The translations under genes were made by a program, and so were the position numbers. The notes below the pieces were generated by a model. It had not been told where the DNA came from. It did not search any database and saw only the letters and a program-made list of their open reading frames with translations. A stretch of DNA of 64,000 nucleotides from Rhodospirillales bacterium (GTDB lineage Bacteria; Pseudomonadota; Alphaproteobacteria; Acetobacterales; Acetobacteraceae): assembly GCA_028869995.1 (NCBI GenBank), contig JAGWQN010000116.1:1-64000 (forward strand). Reading direction: 5' to 3'. Each line of letters opens with the position of its first letter. Position 1 is the first letter of the stretch. Of this stretch, positions 61,209 through 62,678 are shown in pieces.

Positions 61209-61362
61209 CGCGATGCCCCTCCTCCTCGCCGTCCTGCCATTCTGATGCTCCGCCACCCGTGGTCCACGGCCCCTCGTTCCATGCCGCGCACGCGAGGCGA
61301 GTGCCATGCAGCCAACCGCTAGCAGGAATTCGTTTGCCGGAAGAGGCTCGACGAAAAAAGCG

Positions 61363-61391
61363 CTTGCAAGGGCGGGGGCTGACTCCTATGT
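61363..61391 (+). promoter_or_regulatory. Putative alphaproteobacterial housekeeping promoter for odc (CTTGCA-N17-CTATGT)
   Basis: Resembles CTTGAC-N17-CTATAT; predicted TSS ~61398, giving a ~150-nt leader. Confidence 0.45.
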
Positions 61392-61499
61392 GCCGCGTCC
61401 ACGCAGCGCGCACGTGCCTCTGGCCCTCGGGTTACGCAACGACGTCAAGCGTTCTGGCAATCGTTTTGTCGCTGGTTCGTTCGACCGTTTCGCAATCTG

Positions 61500-61525
61500 G
61501 GCCCGCCGCCTTGGCCAGGCGGGCC
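61500..61525 (+). promoter_or_regulatory. Attenuator-like hairpin in the odc leader
   Basis: GGCCCGCC-gccttggcca-GGCGGGCC followed by TTTC, 22 nt upstream of the GTG start of the odc-like gene. Confidence 0.5.
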
Positions 61526-61547
61526 TTTCACTTGGAGGCCATCTGCG

Positions 61548-62678
61548 GTGACCCAGAAAATCGCCCGGTATCTCGCCGAGCATCAGCCGGCGACGCCATG
61601 CCTGGTGTTCGACGTCGATCAAGCAGAAGCCAATTTCCGGGCTCTGCAGAGCGCCCTTCCGGTCGCGCGTATCTATTACGCGGTCAAGGCAAACCCCGCG
61701 GCGCCCATCCTCGAGCGCCTGGTTCGCCTCGGCAGCTTCTTCGACGCGGCGAGCATCGAGGAAATCGAATCCTGCCTCGCCGCCGGCGCCCGCGCCGACG
61801 CCATCAGCTTCGGCAACACCATCAAGAAGGGCTCGGCCATCGCCCGCGCCTACGCGCACGGCGTCGGCATGTATGCCTTCGACTCGGCAGAGGAGCTCGA
61901 GAAGCTCGCCCGCCACGCGCCGGGAGCGGCGGTCTATTGCCGCATCATGGTCGCCAATGCCGGCGCGGACTGGCCGCTGTCGCGCAAGTTCGGCACGACC
62001 GTGGAACGAGCCCGCGAGCTGATGCTGCGGGCGCGCGCGCTGGGCCTCGACCCGATGGGCCTCTCCTTCCATGTCGGCAGCCAGCAGACGTCCACCGCCA
62101 GCTATGAGGCGGCGATCGCCAAGGTGGCCGTGCTGTTCACGGATCTGCGCGACGCGGGCGTGAAGCTGCGCATGATGAACCTCGGGGGCGGCTTCCCCAC
62201 TCGCTACCGCGACGAGGTGCCCGCTATCCGCGCCTTCGCCGACGCGATCGGCGGCGCCCTGGCACGGGCCTTCGGCAACGAGCTGCCAGACATCGTGATC
62301 GAACCCGGCCGTTCCGTCGTCGGCGACGCGGGGGTCGTGGCGTGCGAGGTGGTGCTGGTGAGCCAGCGCGATCCCGCCGACCCGGTGCGCTGGGTGTATC
62401 TCGACATCGGTCGCTTCGGGGGCCTGGCGGAAACCGAGGGCGAGGCCATCAAGTACCGCATCGCCACGCCGCACGACGGCACCCCGACCGGCCCGGTCTC
62501 GATCGCCGGCCCGACCTGCGACGGCGCCGACATTCTCTACGAGAAAGCCAACTACCGGCTGCCGCTCGCGCTGACCACGGGCGACCGGGTGGAACTGCAC
62601 GCCACCGGCGCCTACGTCACGACCTACGCGAGCCAGGCCTTCAACGGGTTCGCGCCCCTGAAGGAACATTACATCTAG
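61548..62678 (+). CDS. Ornithine/lysine decarboxylase-like, fold type III PLP enzyme
   Basis: RIYYAVKANPAAPILERL (PLP lysine), GVGMYAFDSAEELEKLAR, LSFHVGSQQT, MNLGGGFPTRY, GPTCDGADILYE; eukaryotic-type ODC family. Confidence 0.9.
   Translation: MTQKIARYLAEHQPATPCLVFDVDQAEANFRALQSALPVARIYYAVKANPAAPILERLVRLGSFFDAASIEEIESCLAAGARADAISFGNTIKKGSAIARAYAHGVGMYAFDSAEELEKLARHAPGAAVYCRIMVANAGADWPLSRKFGTTVERARELMLRARALGLDPMGLSFHVGSQQTSTASYEAAIAKVAVLFTDLRDAGVKLRMMNLGGGFPTRYRDEVPAIRAFADAIGGALARAFGNELPDIVIEPGRSVVGDAGVVACEVVLVSQRDPADPVRWVYLDIGRFGGLAETEGEAIKYRIATPHDGTPTGPVSIAGPTCDGADILYEKANYRLPLALTTGDRVELHATGAYVTTYASQAFNGFAPLKEHYI

Follow-up and report, generated by a model that had tools for sequence, protein, structure and literature searches.

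A leader RNA conserved before ornithine decarboxylase genes of Acetobacteraceae, related to rhizobial ar45 and probably a two-state switch

In a 64,000-nt stretch of DNA (hereafter the window), we found that the gene odc is preceded by a conserved leader RNA of about 150 nt, which we read as a two-state, cis-acting RNA switch controlling the translation of odc; we put the probability of this reading at roughly two in three. It is built on comparisons of sequences, which document the conservation of the RNA, its homology with the RNA ar45, its recurrence in polyamine contexts and compensatory changes in its core, and on folding computations, by which two mutually exclusive folds are predicted.

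The gene odc (plus strand, 61548-62678, starting with the GTG at 61548-61550) encodes a PLP-dependent ornithine/lysine decarboxylase of 376 aa with an alanine-racemase fold, of the COG0019 type. Upstream of the leader lies a divergent YihY/BrkB gene, and downstream of odc a CoA-transferase-like gene. A candidate promoter on the same strand (61363-61391) consists of a -35 hexamer CTTGCA (61363-61368), a spacer of 17 nt and a -10 hexamer CTATGT (61386-61391). A generic promoter scan of this leader region found none above its threshold; hexamers of the form TTGC[A/G]-N17/18-[TC]ATNNN stand at a constant distance from the RNA core in 23 of 29 loci of the family. As both the spacing and this distance are kept, transcription probably starts just 5' of the first core helix, P1, at about 61397-61400. 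The first-pass annotation had described this promoter, the leader of about 150 nt, a GC hairpin GGCCCGCC-N10-GGCGGGCC followed by TTTC, and an open frame from GTG 61414 whose TGA overlaps the odc start; all of them are present in the window at those places, and the core of the leader is nearly invariant across the family. The hairpin (61500-61525, plus strand; arms 61500-61507 and 61518-61525) keeps its pairing through changes on both sides (alignment columns 180-186/201-207). It was considered as an intrinsic terminator and rejected, since it has no T-run and a terminator scan of the odc strand found none. The Shine-Dalgarno sequence GGAGG (61534-61538), extended by CC to 61540, follows on the same strand.

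The search for odc over 60 relatives gave 30 loci in the Acetobacteraceae, every one of which carries the leader. Among 18 aligned leaders of this family 66 columns are invariant, and the sequence diverges in the spacer of the promoter, at two points of insertion and in the terminal hairpin. When named genomes were scanned with the leader pattern, at least 116 stretches were found; among the matches listed, nearly all belong to Acetobacteraceae (Acetobacter, Gluconobacter, Komagataeibacter, Gluconacetobacter, Asaia, Roseomonas and kin), and this assigns the window to the same family. The plasmid records and viral contigs searched contained no copies, and no further copy in the same genome rose above noise. 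By its predicted stability the fold does not stand out from shuffled sequence: z is 0.75, and 159 of 200 shuffles fold as stably or more so. We set fold stability aside as evidence, and it is on conservation, as read from the alignments, that the reality of the leader rests.

Four parts of the leader, all on the plus strand, matter for what follows. The 5' strand of P1, ACGC (61401-61404), pairs with GCGT (61449-61452) in the conserved fold. The left strand of the core is CGCACGTGCCTCTGGCCC (61409-61426); its UGC at 61415-61417 pairs with GCA at 61436-61438 in the same fold. The right strand, GGTTACGCAACGACGTCAAGCGT (61430-61452), is shared, being the partner either of the left strand in the conserved fold or of the 3' block in the alternative one. 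This 3' conserved block, of the Acetobacteraceae type (61470-61497), shows U.G to C-G changes and contains a hairpin TGGTT-CGTTC-GACCG (61473-61487) and an anti-core strand GACCGTTTCGCAATC (61483-61497).

The open frame had been proposed as a possible leader peptide, whose translation would unfold the hairpin, be coupled to odc and perhaps sense ornithine as SpeFL does. SpeFL is a leader peptide controlling the ornithine decarboxylase gene of enterobacteria, whose SpeF has a decarboxylase fold other than that of the window odc; the likeness is that in both cases a leader would control the gene of an ornithine decarboxylase. The frame (61414-61551, plus strand) runs for 45 codons from GTG 61414-61416 to TGA 61549-61551, and is open further 5' up to an ATG at 61306 (81 aa). 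That it is open, that its stop overlaps the odc start, and that related leaders in other families have a short ORF gated through its ribosome binding site (RBS), sometimes ending in (S/T)S(M/I), all speak for a peptide. However, the frame is not kept in relatives: its phase relative to odc is 0, 1 or 2 in 11, 8 and 10 of the 29 family leaders, its stop overlaps the odc start at only 5 of the 29 loci, its length goes from 5 to more than 160 codons, and the spacing between the conserved blocks varies in all three phases. Moreover, no Shine-Dalgarno sequence stands ahead of GTG 61414, and this GTG is itself a part of the RNA core common to all types of the leader, which is kept irrespective of frame. 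SpeFL is a translated peptide, while the frame of the window leader is not conserved. Hence, we judged the frame not coding and rejected the peptide together with its coupling to odc; a SpeFL-like sensor is here barely credible.

The leader had also been likened to the speF leader (RF00518; Corbino 2005), with which, among alphaproteobacteria, it shares its position ahead of this decarboxylase gene. A scan of the whole 64,000-nt window against Rfam returned two tRNAs and nothing else. The leader itself, scanned at E<=10, matched no credible family, RF00518 and ar45 (RF02347) included, and reached the gathering score of neither (37 and 40 bits respectively); seven homologous leaders matched neither speF nor ar45, and no match to RF00518 was found in the 60 relatives. 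As a positive control, the RF00518 model found matches in 11 of 289 genomes of the class. The sequence 3' of the core bears no resemblance to RF00518, the part which the window leader lacks. It is thus very improbable that the leader is the speF RNA itself, and we rejected this identity in view of the working control, in spite of the common gene and bacterial class. What stands of the proposed kinship is that odc has a structured leader whose 5' domain (61396-61458) is homologous to rhizobial ar45, an RNA which elsewhere adjoins RF00518.

This homology shows in the sequence of the core: ar45 has GUCGCACGUGCC...AAGCAACGACGGUG, as has the window leader, and the two share CGCACGUGCC...GCAACGAC with an enclosing P1 as well as the position before odc. 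ar45 (Smr45C of Sinorhizobium) differs by its P1, which is GCCC/GGGC followed by UUUUUU, whereas that of the window leader is ACGC/GCGU followed by UCUGGC; the U-run is absent after the 3' strand of P1 in the window and the family, and GCGUUCUGGC stands in its place. It also differs in having been reported as a separate sRNA, and its Rfam model has no match to the window leader. In other genomes Rfam ar45 lies directly upstream of RF00518 at odc (8 loci checked). Corbino et al. described an extended speF element in which a large insertion sits in the conserved 5' stem and a second part follows (PMC1273637). We infer that this 5' stem appears to be ar45, so that ar45 and RF00518 together would make up the extended element.

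We built two models of the leader, whose E-values are rough. R1 is a sequence-only model made from the Acetobacteraceae leaders (type I) alone. It matches 61 of 385 genomes of the class, mostly over its 5' half, and thereby led to a second set of leaders, "type II", which stand before odc homologues. R2 is a structural model made from 41 type I and type II sequences, with no ar45 in its training set. It matches 68 of the 385 genomes, in 33 families, all of them class members; a sample of 299 genomes of the phylum gave no match outside Alphaproteobacteria. At the speF loci R2 finds 8 of 11, at the ar45 position, with E from 5e-8 to 1.7e-5, and 7 of these 8 are among the 8 loci checked for Rfam ar45. 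The window sequence belongs to both training sets and so its own R2 match (61396-61458, plus strand; 66.9 bits, E 1.8e-16) is not evidence of membership; what does count as evidence is that R1 reached type II and R2 reached ar45. The Rfam ar45 model, applied to 14 type II loci, reached only one of them, below threshold (best 22.6 bits). In one type II leader (L093), GTTCGTTCGACCGTCCC is found 262 nt after the core and resembles the 3' block of Acetobacteraceae; this leader is possibly an intermediate.

The helices of the core, namely P1 (5 pairs), CG/CG, UGC/GCA and CC/GG, consist of 96.5% standard pairs over the 41 sequences. Changes on both sides were found in 5 of the 12 core pairs, which was equalled by 0 of 500 shuffles in a control that ignores kinship, and most versions of the pairing slid along the sequence pair far less. 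P1 itself changes on both sides in other lineages (GACGC/GCGUC and GACGU/ACGUC); its support comes from these column-wise compensatory changes and from the GCCC/GGGC of ar45. Elsewhere in the core UGC/GCA alternates with UAC/GUA. With left and right arms exchanged between species, the native combinations showed no clear excess (p = 0.78 over the entire left x right duplex), as the core is close to invariant, and within Acetobacteraceae the core pairs vary too little for covariation.

The same strands can pair differently. In fold A, the left and right core strands would pair with each other (P1 61401-61404/61449-61452, CG/CG, UGC/GCA, CC/GG), leaving the RBS clear of the left strand. Fold B would have the right strand take the 3' block (61483-61497) and the left strand, being freed, cover the Shine-Dalgarno sequence and the bases before the start codon, thus blocking translation: TGGCC 61421-61425 is predicted to pair with the RBS, the whole of 61534-61540 with 61421-61427 in the ground state, and CGCA 61402-61405, within P1, with TGCG 61544-61547. 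In both types of leader the core fold and the RBS-masking fold draw on the same strands and so cannot coexist. Computed on the window leader, fold B reaches -61.2 kcal/mol and fold A, with the conserved core enforced, -54.9 kcal/mol, a predicted advantage of 6.3 kcal/mol for B in computations that leave out ligand, Mg and cotranscriptional folding; fold A would therefore need help. Among 131 distinct Acetobacteraceae leaders, the right strand is predicted to pair with GACCGUUUCGNAAC of the 3' block in 125, and the Shine-Dalgarno sequence with the left strand in 104. The latter pairing drops from 5.1 pairs to 2.7 on shuffling of the RBS segment, and in 68 of 132 distinct leaders the start codon is immediately preceded by UGCG, with which CGCA of P1 can pair. 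In chimeras within the family, swapping the RBS tails against the left strands changes nothing, the left strand being invariant.

Fold B being the predicted ground state by this margin, and the leader not unusually stable, both weigh against a switch. The masked fold, predicted as the ground state in most leaders, could also belong to a constitutive damper of translation or an RNA thermometer, which would set a low rate and sense no metabolite. For this purpose, however, complementarity to the RBS would suffice and the 66 invariant columns would not be needed, nor would a damper account for the same core before odc, homospermidine synthase (hss) and speD-speE genes, so that we regard it as distinctly improbable. 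In the switch which we prefer, the leader is probably a sensor: a signal from polyamine metabolism, either a small molecule or a protein reading one, would shift the balance between the folds, and stabilising the core would free the RBS, which would make a translational ON switch. A terminator-like U-run follows P1 in ar45 and in many type II leaders, where formation of the core could be a transcriptional OFF signal. The control of odc could therefore run in either direction.

Type II leaders would mask their RBS by other means. In 62 of 65, the Shine-Dalgarno sequence is predicted to be paired by the pyrimidine run that follows the core. This hairpin often extends, and the right strand of the core is then predicted to pair beyond the AUG; AUGNUUGC, which pairs with GCAAC, would recur for this reason. 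Native partners score -785 against -703 for swapped ones (sd 18; 0 of 5000 permutations as good, after removal of near-duplicates, with kinship otherwise uncontrolled). The AUG gated in this way opens in some leaders a short ORF ending in (S/T)S(M/I) (L046, L050, L058, L063, L076, L078, L082, L085, L087, L093, L099). In type II leaders with such ORFs AGTAT occurs 17 times, 16 of them in the ORF frame, and it lies at most 8 codons from the stop in 14 of 35 type II ORFs, both counts being inflated by related genomes; from these sequences, a leader peptide may act in some type II leaders. In others (L055, L067, L070, L075, L080, L088, L089, L091, L096) the gated AUG reaches odc without a stop, and would add an N-terminal extension to its product.

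The genes behind the motif point to polyamines. Outside the first family set, 77 of 84 distinct loci stand before polyamine genes, a count made of 75 loci from the automatic table and of two (L094, speD-speE; L102, odc) re-read by hand, as the table had picked the wrong motif in L094, L102 and L282. An odc of the kind found in the window follows at 49 of the 84 loci and a second odc, 30-35% identical to it, at 22, in some cases with a homospermidine synthase or deoxyhypusine-synthase-like gene behind it; five have homospermidine synthase and then odc, and one has speD-speE. Of the other seven, one precedes a class-I glutamine amidotransferase gene and one a gene without known function, four reach the end of their contig, and one was not assigned. 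The speD-speE locus (L094; G358:C105:30417-32566), with AdoMet decarboxylase and spermidine synthase, is the only core-bearing polyamine operon with neither odc nor hss in reach. The amidotransferase gene (L059/L283) and, in another genome, the gene of a 136-aa protein of unknown function (L106/L284) have no evident polyamine role.

A conserved structured core joined to a predicted expression platform, as one expects of a riboswitch, was found here by computation. More specifically, the ar45-like core could be the aptamer of a riboswitch spread over the alphaproteobacterial class, reading a metabolite of the polyamine pathway (homospermidine, for example) and governing odc, homospermidine synthase and speD-speE; on this view rhizobial ar45 would be a terminated transcript of it, and the version of the Acetobacteraceae would work on translation only. 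We hold this tentatively, at a little below even odds. Against a switch speaks a study in A. tumefaciens: there the speF region, probed in-line from -400 to +3, showed binding to none of six candidates, namely ornithine, lysine, diaminopimelate, putrescine, cadaverine and spermidine (PMC1273637), and the probed region should include ar45. Homospermidine and SAM are outside this list of ligands, and homospermidine is a main triamine of most rhizobia, S. meliloti making spermidine too (PMC13293326). The absence of a ligand for the speF region would also suit a core to which an RNA-binding protein, or Hfq together with a second RNA, attaches in place of a small molecule, the protein shifting the RBS-masking fold. 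A passage of PMC7717549 cites the co-precipitation of S. meliloti ar45 with Hfq, and the short, strictly conserved loops could be contacts. On the other hand, the neighbours of the motif are biosynthetic, no regulator gene recurs beside it among the motif loci, and such strictness would be equally expected of metabolite aptamers; we consider a protein-read core rather unlikely. In some species ar45 is expressed as a separate, Hfq-associated sRNA (PMC7717549); this could hint at action in trans and so weighs against the cis-acting switch. As late as 2025 the function of ar45 was described as unclear (PMC12403871).

Two other leaders bear comparison. The odc1 motif (uORF-25-1, PMC8632094) is likewise an alphaproteobacterial odc leader with a masked RBS; it is described with paired UUG starts two bases apart and an 11-codon uORF, whereas the window has the single GTG start at 61548 and no uORF. 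The spermidine riboswitch, a variant of SAM-I (PMC10853860), also provides RNA control of polyamine genes (speE, speB, speD), but with another sequence and fold, and the window leader has no SAM-I match in Rfam. Known before are ar45 and speF in rhizobia and kin. Among open-licence papers we found none that describes the Acetobacteraceae form, which is a short variant (about 150 nt) with neither terminator nor uORF, or the type II leaders, and none that links the RNA with homospermidine synthase and speD-speE. The speF leader (since 2005) and ar45 (for more than a decade) have both been without known function. One RNA core before odc, the second odc, homospermidine synthase and speD-speE in 33 alphaproteobacterial families turns these orphan RNAs into one testable hypothesis, the control of polyamine synthesis at the RNA level, and its short form in Gluconobacter and Komagataeibacter, which are tractable and industrial, offers a simple system for finding the ligand and the direction of control.

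Finally, we note some individual loci. A second odc-like gene, about 50% identical and without the leader, occurs in the genus of the window and in one other member of the family (L117-L120). A MAG labelled Nitrosovibrio (Betaproteobacteria) has the Acetobacteraceae leader (L147), probably through a binning error. One genome (G261) carries an ar45-speF leader (L035) and a type II leader (L064) on different contigs, the latter before a copy of odc.
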